Below are positions 5,250 through 51,928 of a stretch of 64,000 nt of DNA, piece after piece. The notes beneath the pieces are model-generated. The model made no database searches and was not told the origin of the DNA. It saw only the letters and a list, made by a program, of their open reading frames with translations. This DNA comes from Solirubrobacterales bacterium. GTDB taxonomy: Bacteria; Actinomycetota; Thermoleophilia; Solirubrobacterales; 70-9. The stretch spans positions 1 to 64,000 of the forward strand of contig JANWHW010000002.1 in the NCBI GenBank assembly GCA_025450195.1, in the 5' to 3' direction. The position numbers were made by a program, and so were the translations under genes. Within the stretch, counting starts at the first letter, position 1. Each line of letters opens with the position of its first letter.

Positions 5250-6445
5250 ATCGCAAATCACCGCACCGACGGGCTGTCGACATCGCCGAACGAGTGCTGC
5301 GGCAGAACTGGATGGAGGGCGAGCGCGACGGCATCCGCTATGGCTACACCCAGCCCAGTCCAAGCCGCTATCCATGGCAGTGGTACTGGGACTCATGCTT
5401 CGCGGCAATCGTCTGGCGCCGCTTCGACCGTGAGCGCTCAAGGGCCGAGCTGGAGAGCCTGCTCGCGGCACAGCGACCCAACGGCTTCATCGGCCACACC
5501 ATCTTTTGGGACCGCTCCGTCTCGCTGACCCGGCTCCCCTTCTACAACGTCACCTCCCGCAGCTCGTTTCAAACCGAGACGATCCAGCCGCCGCTGCTCG
5601 CCTGGGCCTGGCGAATCGCCGTTGGGGACCCCGCGAAGGAGCCCCGCATTGCGGCACAGGCTGACTGGTTGGCGGCCAACCGAGACCTGGACGGCGATGG
5701 GCTGCTGTGGATCGTCCAGCCCGACGAGTCGGGGTTGGACGCCTCGCCAAAGTTCGATCCGATCTGGGGCCGCAGGGCAAACGGGCGCATCGGCTTTCCC
5801 TGCCTGGTACGCCGCAACCGCCAGCTCGGCTTCGACGCACGGCGCGTGCGCGACCACGGCGGTCCGGTCGTCTGCGAGGTCCTGGTCAACACGATGTGGT
5901 CCCTCTCGCTGCAAGCGCTGGGCAGGCCATCGTCGACCGGGGCGATGGTCGAGCGCCTCTGGGACGAGCGGCGGGGCGTCTTCCTCGACGAGGCGCAGCC
6001 TGGCGCGGTCCGGCCCGGCGTCCTCACCTGGGCCGCGCTTGCGCCCCTGGCCCTGCCCGATTTGCCCGAGGAGATCGGCCGGCGACTGGTTGAGGAGCAC
6101 CTGCTGAACGAGCGCGAGTTCCTGACTCCGGTGGCTCCGCCCTCGGTCGCCGCTTCGGAGCCGAGCTATGAGCCCGGAGGAGGCCGTCGCCTGCCGCGGC
6201 GCTACTGGCGAGGACCAACCTGGGTCAACTCGGCGTGGCTCGTTTGGCTCGGGCTGCAACGCCTCGGCTACGAGGAGGAGGCGATGCGGCTGGCAAACGG
6301 CCTGATCGGCGCGGTGGAGCGTGAAGGCCTGCGCGAGTACTACGACCCCCGCACCGGCGCCGGGCTAGGCGCAAAGGACTTCGCCTGGTCAGCCCTCATC
6401 GCGGAGCTGGCCGACCCAAGGACGCCGCCAGGCGGCTATTTGTAG
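5246..6445 (+). CDS. GH63 / MGH1-like glycoside hydrolase
   Basis: This 399-residue protein has the (alpha/alpha)6 barrel signatures of the GH63 C-terminal/MGH1-like family: [20 protein letters not shown] near residue 43, [19 protein letters not shown] near 318, and [19 protein letters not shown] near the end. Characterised relatives of this length hydrolyse mannosylglycerate or glucosylglycerate, compatible solutes of thermotolerant actinobacteria. Trehalase-like activity is the alternative. There is no signal peptide, so it should be cytoplasmic. It starts with GTG overlapping the permease stop, and its 3' end overlaps the convergent infA gene by ten bases. Confidence 0.8.
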
Positions 6446-6654
6446 CGGTAGGTGATTCGACCGCGGTCGAGGTCGTAAGGCGAAAGCTCGATCTTCACCC
6501 TGTCGCCGGGGAGGATGCGGATGTAATGGCGGCGCATCTTGCCGGAGATGTGGCCGAGCACCTCATGGTCGTTATCGAGTTTCACTCGAAACATCGTGTT
6601 GGGGAGGGCCTCGGTGATCTCGCCCTCCATCTCGATCTTCTCCTCTTTACCCAT
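6436..6654 (-). CDS. infA: Translation initiation factor IF-1
   Basis: This 72-residue protein matches IF-1 throughout: an S1/OB-fold domain with [40 protein letters not shown] and ending [17 protein letters not shown]-1 binds the 30S A site and assists IF-2/IF-3 in initiation. In many actinobacteria infA lies with ribosomal protein genes; here a two-gene accessory module separates it from the cca-alr block upstream. The 94 bases before its ATG are free of genes and can hold its promoter. Confidence 0.97.
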
Positions 6655-6747
6655 GCGCGGGGCAGCGTACCTGAACCCGCGGCGCGCCCTTCATGTAAAC
6701 GCCGATCCACAGCGCCGATCTATTGAACAGCTAGTCATTGTTACCCC

Positions 6748-7614
6748 TCATTGGCTGCCCGTATGGCTGAAGCGCTTTGTGATCCTGAGCCGAGTTGCCT
6801 CTGGCCGCCGTTCGAACCATGCCAGCTCCAGGCCAGCAATCGTGTGAATGCGATCGCTAATCCGCGGAGCGATCAGCGCCGCTAGTCGCTCGGCGTAGTC
6901 GCGTAGCTCGAACCAGATGGGGCTGCGCTCCGGTGGCTCCCCGATCAAGAGATAGAGGTTGAGTTGTTTTGCCTTGGGATCAAGCCAGCCTTCAGGATCT
7001 TGCATGGAGCGCCTAAGGCGACTGAGCTGGGTTGGTGGCAAGAGATACGTTGCGCTAGCAAGTGCTTGGATCAACGCGAAGAAGGGGTCCTTATCTGGGG
7101 CTCCGTGGTTGGTCAGCTTGACCTCGCCGAGAATGGGAAGGCGAGAGGTCGCATTTGCGAGAAGTAGGTCGAGTCGCGGGCCCCTTGCAGTGCTGGCGCC
7201 TCCTTTAAGCCGCGCCCCCAGGGCTCGAGTCGAAACGAGCTCCCGGTCCAAGTAGTAGAAGCTCAACGACTCATCGCCAAGCACCTGCCATGGCTTCTTA
7301 CGCTGATGTGGCTTCTCACGCCGACTGTGGAGATAATGACCGAGGGCATCGGTGCTCTCGATGCCCGGCGGCTTTTTAAACGGACGTTTCTTGGGATAGA
7401 AGTCTTGGTCGCTGTAGTCATGCTGGCCAAAGTAGTTCTCGGTTTCGGCCAAGCTATCGCTGAACATGTCGACCAACGCTTGGGGGTCTTTCAAGAGGCG
7501 CTTAGCCTTTGAGAGACGCTGTGCGTACACCTTTTCACCACGCTTGCCAGCACCCTTGAAATGAAGATCCGTGTAGGCGCGGAAGAGGGGCGTGATAGGG
7601 ATCGAGTCGTTCAT
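6748..7614 (-). CDS. PD-(D/E)XK nuclease-like protein
   Basis: This 288-residue protein is not one I can name. Its middle carries a pattern typical of PD-(D/E)XK nucleases: PRLDLLL (Asp near residue 149), then PILGEVKLT (Glu and Lys of the E-x-K pair, 15 and 17 residues later), then a helix with Gln in FFALIQALASATYL. The N-terminal third is basic (KKRPFKKPP, RREKPHQRKKP), suited to nucleic acid binding. ATG 7614 overlaps the stop of the upstream metallo-beta-lactamase gene (TGATG), with GGGAG upstream; ATG 7629 is the longer alternative. GC content is visibly lower than in flanking housekeeping genes, suggesting acquisition by transfer. Function is inference. Confidence 0.6.
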   Translation of the reverse strand: MNDSIPITPLFRAYTDLHFKGAGKRGEKVYAQRLSKAKRLLKDPQALVDMFSDSLAETENYFGQHDYSDQDFYPKKRPFKKPPGIESTDALGHYLHSRREKPHQRKKPWQVLGDESLSFYYLDRELVSTRALGARLKGGASTARGPRLDLLLANATSRLPILGEVKLTNHGAPDKDPFFALIQALASATYLLPPTQLSRLRRSMQDPEGWLDPKAKQLNLYLLIGEPPERSPIWFELRDYAERLAALIAPRISDRIHTIAGLELAWFERRPEATRLRITKRFSHTGSQ

Positions 7615-8867
7615 CAGATCTCCCACCATTCTCCGTTGGGATGTGCCTCGACGTGTTTGAAGATGGATGTGAAGCGTCGCGGGGCGTCGGTATGGATGGG
7701 AACGACCTTATTAGCGTTGATGGCTGCCGCAAAGCGCTGAAGGTCTTTGACGCTGGCATGCCCGGAGGCATGAACGACGGTTAGGCCGATTCCCAGATCC
7801 TCCAAGTCTTGACGGGTCTGCTCACCCAACTTCCCATCTAGATAGCCGGGCCACATCGACCACAAAGCCCAGGCGCCTTGCAGGCATCCTGCTCTCTCAA
7901 GCTCCCACGTCATTGACGATCGAAAGCTCATTACCCACCGGCTTGGGTCATGAGAAAGCTCCTCGGTGTAGATACGTGAGGCGCCAAGGTCATTGACGCG
8001 CCAAAACTCTTTGGCTTCCTTGACTCGCACACGCTGGGACTGCGGAACGTAGACACGGATCCGCTCCCAATCGGCCTGGGGAATCGAGTCGCGACCGGTA
8101 GCCGCAACGACGGCAGCTCCGTAGAGGTCGAGGACTAGATCCCTGCCGGAGCGCACTGCAGCCCTGAAGACACTCACCAGTCGATCGATGTTTTGCGGCG
8201 AATAACAGACCAGGGCCATACCGGCGGTGTCGCGGAACAACTTCACGCAACGCTCCTCCACCCCCTTCTCATCCTTTGGAGCAGAGGCACCGTCTGGCTT
8301 TCGCCCGACCGTCGTCCCCTCTAAGACCAGCGTGTTGACTCCTTCCGGTGGGCGATTGACCAAGCGATTGAAGGTACCCGCCTTACGGCCGTGGGCCCGA
8401 AGGTCGCCGCTATAGAAGAGACGACGATCGTTGGCCTCCACCAGCAACGCGTAGGCGTCAAAGGCGCTGTGGTCCACTAGGAAGGGCGTCACGGTGAAGG
8501 AACCAAGCTGCAGAGACTGACGATCAGCGAGAGTTCCAGCGAGCTCGCAGTCCAAGCCCATTGGGGTGAAGAAGCTTGCTTCTTTCAAGATCCGCGACGT
8601 AGCTGCGCCCATGTAGATGGGCACGTCAGCTGAGATGGATCCGATCAGGCCGTAGTGATCCGGATGCGCGTGGGACAACAGCACCCCGAGTAGGGAAGAG
8701 TCGTTTCCGTCTCGCAGACCCGACACCGAGGGCAGCGGCACTTCCTCATCTGGCTGAGCCCAAAGCGGAAGCCCTAGATCGAGAACCAAGCGCTCGCCAG
8801 TCGCAGCTTCGAGCTCGACGCAACTGCCGCCAACCTCAGTGGCACCACGATGGATACGGGCTCTCAT
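7614..8867 (-). CDS. Beta-CASP metallo-beta-lactamase (RNase J-like) protein
   Basis: This 417-residue protein has the metallo-beta-lactamase metal site SHAHPDH (residues 65-71), His in LVDHSAFD near 133 and Asp in YSGDLRAHG near 155. Beta-CASP hallmarks follow: Glu in LVLEGTTVGR near 183, HASGHASVKDL near 366-376 and PIHTD near 391. This is the architecture of RNase J/CPSF-type nucleases, but it is shorter than RNase J (about 550 residues) and lacks its C-terminal region. It is translationally coupled to the PD-(D/E)XK-like gene, so the two probably act together on RNA or DNA. Lower GC than the neighbours and placement between cca and infA point to an accessory origin. Confidence 0.78.
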   Translation of the reverse strand: MRARIHRGATEVGGSCVELEAATGERLVLDLGLPLWAQPDEEVPLPSVSGLRDGNDSSLLGVLLSHAHPDHYGLIGSISADVPIYMGAATSRILKEASFFTPMGLDCELAGTLADRQSLQLGSFTVTPFLVDHSAFDAYALLVEANDRRLFYSGDLRAHGRKAGTFNRLVNRPPEGVNTLVLEGTTVGRKPDGASAPKDEKGVEERCVKLFRDTAGMALVCYSPQNIDRLVSVFRAAVRSGRDLVLDLYGAAVVAATGRDSIPQADWERIRVYVPQSQRVRVKEAKEFWRVNDLGASRIYTEELSHDPSRWVMSFRSSMTWELERAGCLQGAWALWSMWPGYLDGKLGEQTRQDLEDLGIGLTVVHASGHASVKDLQRFAAAINANKVVPIHTDAPRRFTSIFKHVEAHPNGEWWEI

Positions 8868-8892
8868 TGGTGTGAGCTGTAAGGAGAGCTAA

Positions 8893-8922
8893 CGAAGACC
8901 TGAAGCATTCGAATGGTCTTCG
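8893..8922 (-). terminator. Hairpin after cca, before the two-nuclease module
   Basis: CGAAGACC (8893-8900) and GGTCTTCG (8915-8922) form a perfect 8-bp stem, with the palindrome CATTCGAATG inside and overlapping the loop. It lies downstream of the cca stop and upstream of the metallo-beta-lactamase start on the same strand, so it may end the housekeeping transcript and isolate the module. No long T-tract follows. Confidence 0.45.
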
Positions 8923-8962
8923 ACTCCCGGGAATTCCAACCTTAATGGCGGAATTAGCATCA

Positions 8963-10387
8963 TCAGCCCCGGATGCGGCGCAGGTGGTCGAGGGCCTCCT
9001 CGCGGGTGCTCACCTCGCCGGCGTACTGGGCTGCCTCGAGCTCCGCCAGCAGGCTTCCGACCTCCCGGCCAGGAGAGATCCCAAGCTCGGCGACCAGGTC
9101 GTCGCCCCTCAGAAGCGGCTCCGGAGGGCCGTCGCGGCGCCAGTCGAGAGCCGCCGCAAGCATTTGCCTGGCCAGCTTCAGGTGCGCCTCGATCGCCTCG
9201 TCCGTGGCGAACGGGCCCGAGCCGCGAGCCGAAAGCCGATCGGCGACGGTGAGCAACGTCACGTCGGCGGCAACCGGCTCGGTCGCACGCAGGTACTCGT
9301 GAATGCGGCGCGGAGGCAGCGGCGCCTCATGCACCAAGAAGCCAAGGCGCAGGTGATGGCGCGTCAGCTCCTGAAGCTGCCGCGTCAACACCCGGCTGGC
9401 CCGCAGGCGCAGGCAGAGCTCCTCGACCATTTCGGCCCCCACGCTGTCGTGGCCGATGAAGGTCACAAAGCCATCGCCCTGCTGCCGCGTCGCGGGCTTG
9501 CCGACATCGTGCAAGAGCGCCCCAAAGCGAAGTGCGGTGCCGCGGCTCATCTCGTCGGCGAGCGGCTCCTCGAGCAGCTCGCGAACATCGGTGGCGCGCT
9601 CACCGGCAAAGCGCTCGAGGTCCGCCTCCACCTCGAGCAGTCGCTCGAGGACCGCCAGGGTGTGCCCGTGGACATCGAGATGGTGATTCGGGCCTTGCTC
9701 GACTCCACGCAGCGACCCCAGCTCGGGCAAGACCGCCGCCGTAACGCTTAGCTCTTCGAGCAGCTCAATCCCGCGCAGCGGGCGAGGGCCCGCTAGGAGG
9801 CCCCGCAACTCGGCCAGCTGGCGCTCACCCGCGGGGTCAGCCGCTCGCGACGCTTCCGCTCTGGCAAGGCTCCGAGTGCCGGGGTCGAGCTCGAGTTCGA
9901 GGTCGGCCGCGAGTCGAGCGGCGCGAAGCAACCGAAGCGGGTCAAGCGAGAAGCTGCTCTCACCGACGACGCGCAGGATCCGGCGCTCGAGGTCGTCGAG
10001 GCCGCCGAAGGGATCGACCGGCTCTCCACCGACCAAGGGAACGGCAACGGCGCCGATCGTGAAATCGCGGGCCGCAAGGTCGGCCTCGATCGTCTCGCCA
10101 CGCAGCGTCGATGCGTCGACCTGCCATGAATTGTCGCCCGCCACTGCCCGCCAGGTCCCAAACTCCGCCGAGAGCTCGAAGGCATGGCCATCGCCCGCAC
10201 CCGCGATCGCCCGAACCGCAGCCCTCGGATCCCCCGCAACGGCGAGGTCGAGGTCGGAGACTTCGCGACCCAAGGCAGCGTCCCGCACGGCGCCCCCGGC
10301 TATCCAGGCGGTCTCCGCTTCGGCCCCCAGCGCTCGCCGTGCCAGGTCAACGAGGGGAGAAGCAAAGAGACGATCGGCGAGCGTCAC
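8963..10387 (-). CDS. CCA tRNA nucleotidyltransferase / poly(A) polymerase family
   Basis: This 474-residue protein has the class II nucleotidyltransferase head (AWIAGGAVRDAALGR, then SDLDLAV with the metal-binding Asp pair), RDFTIGAVAV, and the tRNA-binding motif DPLRLLRAARLAADL. An HD domain follows (FGALLHDVGKPATR near 290, FIGHDSVGAEM). It probably adds or repairs the 3' CCA of tRNAs; the family also includes A-adding and poly(A) enzymes, which cannot be separated by eye. Its ATG overlaps the alr stop (ATGA), so the two genes are coupled. Confidence 0.9.
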   Translation of the reverse strand: MTLADRLFASPLVDLARRALGAEAETAWIAGGAVRDAALGREVSDLDLAVAGDPRAAVRAIAGAGDGHAFELSAEFGTWRAVAGDNSWQVDASTLRGETIEADLAARDFTIGAVAVPLVGGEPVDPFGGLDDLERRILRVVGESSFSLDPLRLLRAARLAADLELELDPGTRSLARAEASRAADPAGERQLAELRGLLAGPRPLRGIELLEELSVTAAVLPELGSLRGVEQGPNHHLDVHGHTLAVLERLLEVEADLERFAGERATDVRELLEEPLADEMSRGTALRFGALLHDVGKPATRQQGDGFVTFIGHDSVGAEMVEELCLRLRASRVLTRQLQELTRHHLRLGFLVHEAPLPPRRIHEYLRATEPVAADVTLLTVADRLSARGSGPFATDEAIEAHLKLARQMLAAALDWRRDGPPEPLLRGDDLVAELGISPGREVGSLLAELEAAQYAGEVSTREEALDHLRRIRG

Positions 10388-48681: not shown

Positions 48682-49539
48682 CTAGCCGAGGGACGGGCGC
48701 ATCTGGCGCAGACGCTTGACCCGCTCTTCGATTGGGGGGTGGGTCGAGAAGAGGCCGGCGATCCCCTTGCCGGAGAACGGCTTGACGATGTAGAGAGGCT
48801 CAGCCGCCTGATTCACTTTCATCGGGATCGCTTCAGCTCCCTGCTCGAGGCGCAGCAGGGCGCTTGCCAGCGACTCCGGATTGCCGCAGATTTCGGCGCC
48901 GCCGGCGTCCGCCGCGTACTCCCGCTGGCGAGAGATGGAGAGCTGGATGATGCTTGCCGCTATCGGCGCCAGCAGGACCATCGCCAGCGAGCCGACCAGG
49001 CCGAGCGGCGACTCGTCGTCGCCGAACCACATCAGCATGTAGGCGATGTAGGTGATCGCGGCGCCAATCGCGGCCGCCACCGACTGGATCAGGATGTCGC
49101 GGTGCTTTACGTGCGCGAGCTCGTGGGCGAGCACACCGCGAAGCTCATCCTCAGAGAGCAATTTGGTGATGCCCCGGGTGACGGCAACGGCCGAGTGCTT
49201 GGGATTGCGGCCGGTCGCGAAGGCGTTGGGCTGATCCTGGGGGATCATGTAGAGGCGCGGCATCGGCAGGTCGGCACGCGTCGTCAGTTCCCGCACGATT
49301 TGGTAGAGCCGGGGCGCCTCGGACTCCTCGATCGGCTCAGCGCGGCTCATTTTGAGCGCGAGTTTGTCGCTGAAGAAGTAGGAGCCGAGGTTTATCAGGA
49401 GGGCAATGCCAAGAAAGAGCGCCGCCGTGCTTGGCCCCCCAATCAGCGCGCCGATCAGAACCAGCAGCCCAGAGAGGGATGCCAACAGGATCGTGGTGCG
49501 CAGCGTTGCTCCCCATGTGGATTGCTTGGTCGTTGTCAT
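48682..49539 (-). CDS. htpX: Membrane zinc protease HtpX
   Basis: This 285-residue M48 protease has two N-terminal TM segments (LLASLSGLLVLIGALI, TAALFLGIALLINLGSYFF), the zinc motif LAHELAHVKHRD near 136, two further TM segments and the third ligand Glu in REYAADAGGAEICG. It ends FSTHPPIEERVKRL as HtpX does. It degrades misfolded membrane proteins under stress. Start ATG 49539 follows AGGAGCGGAGAGG. Confidence 0.94.
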   Translation of the reverse strand: MTTTKQSTWGATLRTTILLASLSGLLVLIGALIGGPSTAALFLGIALLINLGSYFFSDKLALKMSRAEPIEESEAPRLYQIVRELTTRADLPMPRLYMIPQDQPNAFATGRNPKHSAVAVTRGITKLLSEDELRGVLAHELAHVKHRDILIQSVAAAIGAAITYIAYMLMWFGDDESPLGLVGSLAMVLLAPIAASIIQLSISRQREYAADAGGAEICGNPESLASALLRLEQGAEAIPMKVNQAAEPLYIVKPFSGKGIAGLFSTHPPIEERVKRLRQMRPSLG

Positions 49540-49636
49540 ACCTCTCCGCTCCTTGGGTGGATTGCCCTGTGTGCAGTATGGCCCGCTCTCGCCACCTCGG
49601 CCATAGGGGAGAACCCCCCGTTTGCAACCAGGAGGC

Positions 49637-49738
49637 CCCTAGATGGTTCCCGGCCGACGCCGGGAAATCTAGGGACGTGTTTCAAAAATGCGATCGTACT
49701 CCAGCTCACGTACTTGGACTCAACGAGTCCTTGGTGAG
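49637..49738. other. Two hairpins in the divergent gap before htpX and the lipoprotein gene
   Basis: CCCTAGAT-GG-TTCCCGGC (49637-49654) pairs with GCCGGGAA-ATCTAGGG (49659-49674) around a 4-base loop. A second hairpin follows: CTCAC (49706-49710) with GTGAG (49734-49738), enclosing GGACTC-AAC-GAGTCC. The 289-base gap contains no other gene. Both genes diverge, so these are not simple terminators of either. Confidence 0.5.
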
Positions 49739-49828
49739 ACCGAGTGAATGATGAGCATCGCCAACAAGCTCATTGACATCTTCGACTCGATGCGATGCCA
49801 AGCCCAGGGAGCAGCTAGCCTGCGGCAG

Positions 49829-50747
49829 ATGCGGCGCGGTTTCGCGATCTCGATTTTGAGCCTGCTCAGTGTGATTGTCTACGGCTGCGGTTCTTCGGAA
49901 ACCACAGTCGAGACAAGGACCGTCACCGAGAGTGTCGAGGAGCTCCCTGGAGCGGGGTAATCCTGCTGAGCCTGCGGGCCTCGCTCTGTGTCTTAAGCGC
50001 TCAGGATTCACAGCGGTGAGCTACAAGGAAGGCCGTGTAAAAGGCATCGCTCCAGATGGCACTCAGCTTGTGGCGGCGACCGGGGATGATCCGTTGCTCG
50101 CGTTAGCGATCGTGCGGCACTACAACAACCGCCCGTCACCGCCGCCTCTTAGCGCGGAAGTGGCGCCAGATGGCGTAACGGCACTAGTGGCTAAGTCAAG
50201 TGAGAATGCGGCTCTGAATCTGGCGGCGGCCTGCACATCCCCTCAGTCAGGTGGTGAGTCGAGCGTAAAAGAGGAAAGCTCCGAGAAGGACGACCTGGAT
50301 CAGCTCGGGATTTCTGCAGCGCAAAAGGACAGGCTTCGGGAGTCCATTGAGAATCTCAGTGAAGCCGGGCAATCCTTCGTGGTGACCACGGGTGATTGCC
50401 TAGGCCTCAATAAGTCGACCGAGGAATACGTGCTGTGTGTCAGCGCTACGAAATCAGCTTTTGATGAGCAGGCAGCAGATACACGGGGGAAGATCACTGA
50501 GTCCACAACCTTGACAGCGGGAGAATGTCGCGCCTATCTCGAAGATGCCGGGCAAGCACTAGACCAGGTAAGCCACGCGGTTACTGCCGGATACGAAGCA
50601 ACAAGGGCGGTTATGGAAGCAGCTGAGGCTTCAGATCTTGGTGAAGGAAAAACACAGAAGGCGATTTCAGAAGAAGCTGATCTTCAAGCGAGCCAGGCCC
50701 TCGGGAAAATGGCAACGGCACTACGCGGCGTAGACGTTAGTTGCTGA
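49829..50747 (+). pseudogene. Lipoprotein gene split by a one-base frameshift
   Basis: Frame one starts RRGFAISILSLLSVIVYGC, a lipoprotein signal with lipobox Cys, continues GSSETTVETRTVTESVEELP and stops at 49958-49960. The second frame takes over without overlap in sense: NPAEPAGLALCLKRSGFTAV and runs to 50747, ending ALRGVDVSC. Removing one G from the GGGG run at 49954-49957 joins them into one ~305-residue lipoprotein. This may be a true inactivating mutation, phase variation at a short homopolymer, or a sequencing error. The function is unknown; the second half is Ser/Glu/Ala-rich helical. Confidence 0.7.
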
Positions 50748-50923
50748 GTGCTGGCCTAACCAAGAGCACAACCACAGCATCCGGCGCCTTGGTTGAAGGC
50801 GAATCTGTCTACAGGTGTAGCGGCGTCAAGAGTCCGTTCCCACTTCACGTCCATCCGCAAGTGCTTCGGGGGCGGTTCCGACGCATTTTTCAAACTGGAA
50901 GTCGGCCCTCTAGGCTTTGGCCG

Positions 50924-51928
50924 GTGCGCCGCCGTGGCCTCTTCGCGCAGGTTCTGACGCTCAACGCCGTGCTCGTCTGCATCGCGGTCGGCCTTTCCAT
51001 CGCCATCGCCGGCTCGAGCTCCGCCAACGCGCTGGTCGCTGTCGCGATCGCCCTCGTTGCCGGCGCCGCCAACCTGATCGCCAACCTCTTCGTGCTGCGC
51101 CGCCGGTTCACCCCGCTGGAGCGGCTGATCGAGGAGATGGAGAAGGTCGACCTCAGCCGCCAAGGGAGCGCTCTGCCGCGCTCGATCGACGGCGTCGGGG
51201 AGACCGAGGAGGTGGAGCGCCTCGAGCTCGCCTTCCTGCGGATGATGCGGCGCCTGGAGGCTGAGCGGCTGCGGGCGGGCTCCGCCGCCCTCCGCGCCCA
51301 GGAGCAGGAGCGGACGCGAGTCGCGCGCGACCTCCACGACGAGGTGAACCAGTCGCTGACCGGCCTGCTGCTGCGACTGGAGGCGGTGCGCGAGGCGGCA
51401 CCCCCCGCGCTGGAGCCCGAGCTTGCGGCGACCAAGGCGCTCGCCAACCAGGCGATGCGCGAGTTGCTCTCGCTGGCTCGGCAACTACGGCCCACCGCCC
51501 TCGACGACCTCGGCCTCGTTGCCGCGATTGCCGGACAGGTCGAGCAGCTCGACCAGGGGGGGATCGAGGCACGGCTCCGCGAGGAAGGGCGCTTCTCCGA
51601 CCTCGACGACGACGTGCAGTTGGTCATCTACCGAGTCGCCCAGGAGGCGCTTTCCAACGCTGCCCGCCACAGCGACGCGACGCGGATAGAGGTGAGCCTG
51701 CGCCGCGCCGAGAGCGAGGTCGAGCTGACGATCTCCGACGACGGCCGCGGCTTCGCCTTCGAGGAATCCGAGAGCGGCCTTGGAATCGCAGGTATGAGGG
51801 AGAGGGCCCTGCTGGTTGGGGGCGACTTGACGATCGAGTCACCGGGACGGGGCACCACCGTCCGACTGACGATCAAGCCACCCCCGGACGCGGGAGCGAG
51901 GGAGCGCCAATTTGCCGGTGATCACTAA
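50924..51928 (+). CDS. NarL-type sensor histidine kinase
   Basis: This 334-residue kinase has two TM segments near the N-terminus (LFAQVLTLNAVLVCIAVGLS, ANALVAVAIALVAGAANLIA) with almost no external loop, a HAMP-like linker, the HisKA_3 box RTRVARDLHDEVNQSL near 190 with the phosphorylated His, and a HATPase domain (VAQEALSNAARHSDA, ISDDGRGFAF, GLGIAGMRERA). Lack of a sensory loop suggests intramembrane sensing. GTG 50924 is used because the frame upstream is atypical. The response regulator follows 30 bases later. Confidence 0.9.
   Translation: MRRRGLFAQVLTLNAVLVCIAVGLSIAIAGSSSANALVAVAIALVAGAANLIANLFVLRRRFTPLERLIEEMEKVDLSRQGSALPRSIDGVGETEEVERLELAFLRMMRRLEAERLRAGSAALRAQEQERTRVARDLHDEVNQSLTGLLLRLEAVREAAPPALEPELAATKALANQAMRELLSLARQLRPTALDDLGLVAAIAGQVEQLDQGGIEARLREEGRFSDLDDDVQLVIYRVAQEALSNAARHSDATRIEVSLRRAESEVELTISDDGRGFAFEESESGLGIAGMRERALLVGGDLTIESPGRGTTVRLTIKPPPDAGARERQFAGDH

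Follow-up and report, generated by a model that had tools for sequence, protein, structure and literature searches.

On the minus strand of the window, as we call the whole 64,000-nt stretch of DNA analyzed, two coupled genes follow each other between cca and infA, in the order cca, metallo-beta-lactamase (MBL) ORF, P0002 ORF, infA. The features of the locus are as follows.

8963..10387, minus strand: cca (tRNA nucleotidyltransferase), native flank, 78% identity to congener G202
8868..8962, minus strand: 95-bp leader from cca to the MBL gene, read directly in the sequence
7614..8867, minus strand: MBL gene, first of the pair, 417 aa, predicted RNase J-class beta-CASP metallo-beta-lactamase nuclease, constant component
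7612..7616, minus strand: TGATG stop/start overlap coupling the MBL and P0002 genes, read in the sequence
6748..7614, minus strand: P0002 gene, second of the pair, 288 aa, putative PD-(D/E)XK partner, exchangeable component
6436..6654, minus strand: infA (IF-1), native flank, 96.6% identity over residues 14-72 to G202 and G192
6678..8962, no strand assigned: inserted segment from infA to cca, about 2.28 kb, edges approximate, placed from the empty sites in G202 and G192 and the GC minimum

On re-reading, the coordinates, strand, TGATG coupling and cca/infA flanks given in the first-pass annotation were all exact; for the P0002 ORF, an alternative start is possible 15 nt upstream. The leader contains an inverted repeat (GAAGACC...GGTCTTC, approximately 8893-8920), which is a possible operator or hairpin. 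No consensus sigma-70 promoter and no Rfam match were found in the 95-bp leader, and no repeat array was found in 6600-9050.

The module was described as differing in base composition from both sides, and this was confirmed. The window averages 0.661 GC (sd 0.021), and the module, at 0.590, has the lowest value among 248 comparable stretches of 2.1 kb. The GC content is 0.60 for the MBL ORF and 0.58 for the P0002 ORF, while GC3 is approximately 0.67, compared to 0.75 to 0.89 in the surrounding genes. The stretch with the second-lowest GC content (approximately 0.60; 48751-51370) covers an HtpX-like membrane protease ORF (48682-49539, minus strand) and is probably ordinary. In congener G202 and in G192, only about 80 bp separate cca from infA, an empty site showing that the module at this position was not vertically inherited and placing the extent of the insert at approximately 6678-8962. 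Several other members of the family, from other genera (L121, L123, L124, and L127), have about 1.3 kb between the two genes, which, where read, encodes an enoyl-CoA hydratase-like protein. Since the gene content between cca and infA differs in other genera, the site tolerates different genes. No transposon-diagnostic flanking repeats or transposon ends were found around the module. Rather than being vertically conserved between cca and infA, the pair was thus acquired, as originally proposed, and the view that neither nuclease has a housekeeping role here was also supported.

The module is patchily distributed. MBL homologs (E ≤ 1e-20) were present in 11 of 299 genomes sampled from the class, and a P0002-like protein was present in 5 of 299, one of which (G210) was discarded: the match (L007) was a 717-aa open frame in an apparently unrelated oxidoreductase gene. 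In G135, which belongs to another family of the class, an MBL and a partner 55% and 32% identical to the window pair show the same overlap and have a sugar-kinase-like gene on one side and a guaB-like gene on the other. Because this site is unrelated, the MBL and P0002 genes recur as a unit. The exact pair was also detected in one Bipolaricaulota genome, and in Neomarinimicrobiota and Bacteroidota, MBLs are preceded by P0002-family partners. Broken MBL remnants were observed in two genomes of the class, at L011/L020 (G003) and L015 (G274), one of them beside a PD-(D/E)XK-like ORF. G003 is a genus mate of G135 and has kept only its broken remnant; judged by these loci, the module appears to have been lost as well as gained.

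The two proteins

In the window MBL, the metal ligands of the MBL fold are complete: H66, H68, D70 and H71 (HxHxDH, 66-71), H133 and D155 were invariant in 14 homologs. The same was true for beta-CASP motifs A, B and C (E183, H370, and H392), and a His at motif C marks an RNA-type member. Pfam analysis matched Lactamase_B_2 (2.7e-12) and, at 21.1 bits and thus just under the cut-off of 21.6, RMMBL. RNase J1 was the best NCBIfam match (44.5 bits, with the cut-off at 820), and the closest solved relatives by profile were EF2904 (2az4) and RNase J structures. With all motifs invariant and RNase J as the main matched family, the earlier beta-CASP assignment was upheld, and we conclude that the window MBL is predicted to be a complete RNA-type beta-CASP nuclease.

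P0002 had been assigned by eye to the PD-(D/E)XK proteins. In an alignment of seven homologs, gathered by coupling to an MBL or by similarity search, D149, E164, K166 and Q183 were invariant. A first AlphaFold model, based on four sequences, was unusable (pLDDT 59); after three homologs were added, a fair model was obtained (seven sequences; pLDDT 82.3, pTM 0.87). It comprises a strand at 119-127, a strand at 147-154 carrying D149, a strand at 160-166 carrying E164 and K166, and a helix at 177-191 carrying Q183, which is the order of the PD-(D/E)XK core. The structure prediction, which could have shown no nuclease fold, therefore agreed with the assignment by eye. Foldseek returned no PDB or viral match for this model at E ≤ 0.001; its weak, nonsignificant matches included HincII, MunI and several viral PD-(D/E)XK proteins. 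Sequence searches of Pfam, NCBIfam, PADLOC and PDB gave no match by which the P0002 family could be named. Thus, membership of P0002 in the PD-(D/E)XK superfamily is well supported by motif and predicted topology, although not proven. The family of P0002 itself is rare, since a single-protein scan of genome contigs gave no match, and a search of 396 genomes of the phylum with its profile (E 1e-5) detected no further genome, nor did viral contigs yield a match.

The MBL family and its partners

A profile scan recovered relatives of the MBL at 80 loci in many bacterial phyla and some archaea. Furthermore, relatives were found on 6 viral contigs and in approximately 30 plasmid records, the plasmid set including distant relatives, and in one scan at least 194 stretches were confirmed. 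Of 88 MBL loci scored, 75 have a same-strand ORF of 180 aa or more next to the MBL, in many cases with an overlap of 4 or 16 nt, and in 52 of the 88 an MBL-adjacent ORF, upstream or downstream, carried a PD-(D/E)XK signature. Counted per ORF, the signature was present in 54 of 103 adjacent but only 28 of 503 nonadjacent ORFs (Fisher P = 5e-28), a comparison to be read in light of the facts that the pattern was written after some partners had been seen, that the loci are interrelated and that the ORF calls are mechanical. In the alignment of 61 partners, most of them chosen by the D/E/K signature, the D was conserved in 61, the E in 60 and the K in 58. A downstream Q (37/61) and a Y four residues later (47/61), neither of which was used for selection, correspond to QxxxY, a motif of RecB/Cas4-type nucleases. 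A few partners, in L115, L030, and L096, have variant motifs (EVE, EIE or EIG).

Some MBL loci lack a PD-(D/E)XK neighbor, and a few harbor a metallophosphoesterase or another gene instead. Metallophosphoesterase genes follow the MBL at L025 (9197-9850), L026 (9455-10021) and L045 (11307-12452), with or without a PD-(D/E)XK neighbor, and could represent a further partner class. Neighbors with a conserved HCxxxY...C (group H), which we take to be PcfJ-like, were observed near MBL genes at L041 (9393-9884), L043 (11215-11733) and L112 (46-915).

The partners fall into approximately 18 sequence groups without mutual similarity by phmmer. Profile-profile comparison united only groups A and F and groups C and G, and therefore we make no claim that all partners share an ancestor beyond having the same fold. 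On a quick MBL tree, the groups were scattered, with 20 changes among the seven multimember groups, and partner position (upstream or downstream of the MBL) changed 6 times. In 11 of 22 pairs of MBLs that are at least 58% identical, the partners showed no BLASTP similarity at E 1e-3 and mostly belonged to different groups. The clearest example is L108 and L056: their MBLs are 83% identical, the homologous DNA of both loci starts with the MBL start codon, and the coupled partners, one from group E (the P0002 family) and one from group F, show no similarity. L084 and L086 (MBLs 70% identical) and L074 and L078 (MBLs 76% identical; partner groups C and D) resemble this case. Many of the exchange loci come from metagenome bins, and each case lies within a single contig. 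Where partners were homologous, their identity was below that of the MBLs in 135 of 150 comparisons, which are not independent of each other. Sequence comparison thus indicates that the PD-(D/E)XK partner has been repeatedly exchanged while the MBL stayed, and this is the most informative fact about the module.

Possible roles of the module

The pair had been suggested to be of a defense type. The part of this claim that describes two coupled nucleases of different folds in an acquired module stood; a defense role was not borne out at the locus itself, which has no defense neighbors and lies outside any defense island. PADLOC models matched near MBL homologs included SoFic, AbiLi, AriA, PDC-S01, HEC-01A and pAgo. 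A control set of 80 genes of the window's class likewise matched 21 PADLOC models, mostly cyclases and DrmC-type; the two sets differ in taxon and size, and they were compared by models matched rather than by distinct members. Restriction-modification genes were located near an MBL homolog on Rhizobium pRphaN671a, and an RlaP (RNA repair) gene near one MBL locus. WYL regulators recurred near several homologs, which suggests regulated expression of MBL loci. On plasmid pCY186 of Butyrivibrio proteoclasticus (L155, 4074-7158), a WYL regulator, a PD-(D/E)XK-like protein (KCDLVSFDNNCFTILELK) and an MBL were found in tandem. None of the 14 MBLs tested, nor P0002, matched a PADLOC 2.0.0 model. In summary, the neighborhoods are only suggestive of a defense role.

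The explanation toward which we lean is that the locus harbors an acquired two-gene conflict module, most likely directed against mobile elements, which combines a constant MBL nuclease with an exchangeable PD-(D/E)XK targeting or cutting subunit. The sequences themselves show the catalytic residues of both proteins, the coupling, the acquisition, the recurrence of the pair, and the exchange and faster evolution of the partner. An acquired, patchily distributed pair that joins a constant, slowly evolving nuclease to an exchangeable, fast-evolving partner is what one sees in conflict systems whose variable part meets the target, and from this pattern we infer complex formation, division of labor, substrate and an anti-element purpose as follows. 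The MBL gene would supply the constant RNA-type beta-CASP nuclease, and the coupled gene would supply a fast-evolving, exchangeable PD-(D/E)XK subunit that recognizes invader nucleic acid and probably nicks or cuts it. Made together, the two proteins would probably act as a complex, in which the PD-(D/E)XK subunit would pick the target and the MBL subunit would degrade the target or its transcripts. We put forward tentatively, as a possibility, the wider proposal of a phylum-spanning, undescribed immune system with one conserved RNase J-like beta-CASP effector. In such a system, unrelated PD-(D/E)XK genes would take the place of the coupled partner gene, with the break at the gene boundary, and thereby alter the target, so that two nucleases would set specificity by subunit swapping.

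The same facts were weighed against other explanations. The pair could instead serve accessory nucleic acid processing or repair, such as processing of broken DNA ends or RNA repair, and have spread horizontally without being immune. In line with this, repair and RNA-processing enzymes are found among the beta-CASP proteins, repair exonucleases have the RecB/Cas4-like QxxxY seen in most partners, and RlaP is encoded near one MBL locus. However, the very patchy spread in the class (MBL in 11/299 genomes, partner in 5/299) and the repeated replacement and fast evolution of the partner are atypical of repair pathways, and we consider this role unlikely, if worth keeping in view. Still less probable is a toxin-antitoxin or addiction pair, in which one toxic nuclease is restrained by the coupled protein and the genes are kept by selfish maintenance rather than for targeted immunity. 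Two small coupled genes with a mobile distribution and plasmid carriage, inserted on their own into a housekeeping operon, would fit such a pair, but complete catalytic sites in both proteins are unusual if one is an antitoxin, and toxin and antitoxin normally coevolve, unlike the present pair, in which only one gene is retained and its neighbor is swapped.

A different question is whether both proteins cut. The PD-(D/E)XK protein could be a nucleic acid binder or sensor, with the MBL as the only nuclease, an idea compatible with the conflict-module explanation. The rapid divergence of the partners into many groups without a detectable family and the few variant motifs (L115, L030, and L096) could be explained in this way, but D, E and K are kept in nearly all 61 partners, though most were selected by that signature, and we judge a noncutting partner to be improbable on the whole. 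Finally, a housekeeping RNase pair that was inherited vertically and drifted in composition would account for the codirectional position within a housekeeping operon, but the pair is absent at cca-infA in the sampled relatives and is an outlier in GC and GC3. The empty cca-infA sites rule this explanation out, and its probability is close to nil.

If the conflict-module explanation is true, a widespread conflict system has a common, unnamed MBL family as its constant half, while its other half goes unannotated, being replaced and diverging faster than family models can follow. MBLs that are 83% identical and have unrelated partners offer a direct way to ask which subunit sets the target. Furthermore, looking next to MBLs of this family is a practical way to discover new PD-(D/E)XK families.

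Comparison with known systems

The first-pass annotation knew of no system with this pair, and our searches agree: no family or defense model covers the MBL and P0002 together, and no description of an MBL and PD-(D/E)XK pair was found in the open literature, although most subscription journals lay outside the search and absence is not proof. Shedu SduA is a stand-alone PD-(D/E)XK defense nuclease, and Shedu is not known to include an MBL partner. P0002 gave no Pfam or PADLOC match to the SduA family; Shedu ranked sixth (E = 0.5) with the early poor model of P0002 and was absent among the best 50 matches for the better one. Cas14 of type VII CRISPR is a beta-CASP nuclease in a conflict system. 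The window MBL matched its model (NF045584) weakly, at 14.8 bits against a cut-off of 800, and thus falls outside this family; moreover, the partner architecture differs, and no repeat array was found around the module (6600-9050).

The PADLOC models PDC-S11 and PDC-S18 are single-gene candidate phage-defense models. They were matched weakly by up to 7/61 and 4/61 partners, respectively (best 6.8e-8), and by neither the 14 MBLs tested nor P0002; the partner matches point weakly toward defense. With RecB/Cas4/lambda-exonuclease-like nucleases, the partners share D...ExK and a downstream Q, most of them also QxxxY, and the P0002 model shares the order of the core. P0002 differs from them in having no Tyr, no library match and no significant Foldseek match.

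The nearest solved structure to the window MBL by sequence is EF2904 (PDB 2az4), an MBL of Enterococcus. The MBL in record OL539428, which is taken to be of the EF2904 type, is part of an ABC-transporter gene cluster and has no PD-(D/E)XK partner there; its identity to P0001 is approximately 23%. With RNase J and the bacterial beta-CASP ribonucleases, the window MBL shares HxHxDH, the acidic residue of motif A and the His residues of motifs B and C. However, it has 417 aa compared to approximately 550 aa in RNase J, the sequence match to RNase J covers only about the first 245 residues, and the score is far under the family cut-off. Without the full length including the C-terminal domain and the family score, it is not an RNase J member. 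Unlike RNase J, the window MBL is coupled to a putative nuclease partner, patchy in its distribution and acquired.
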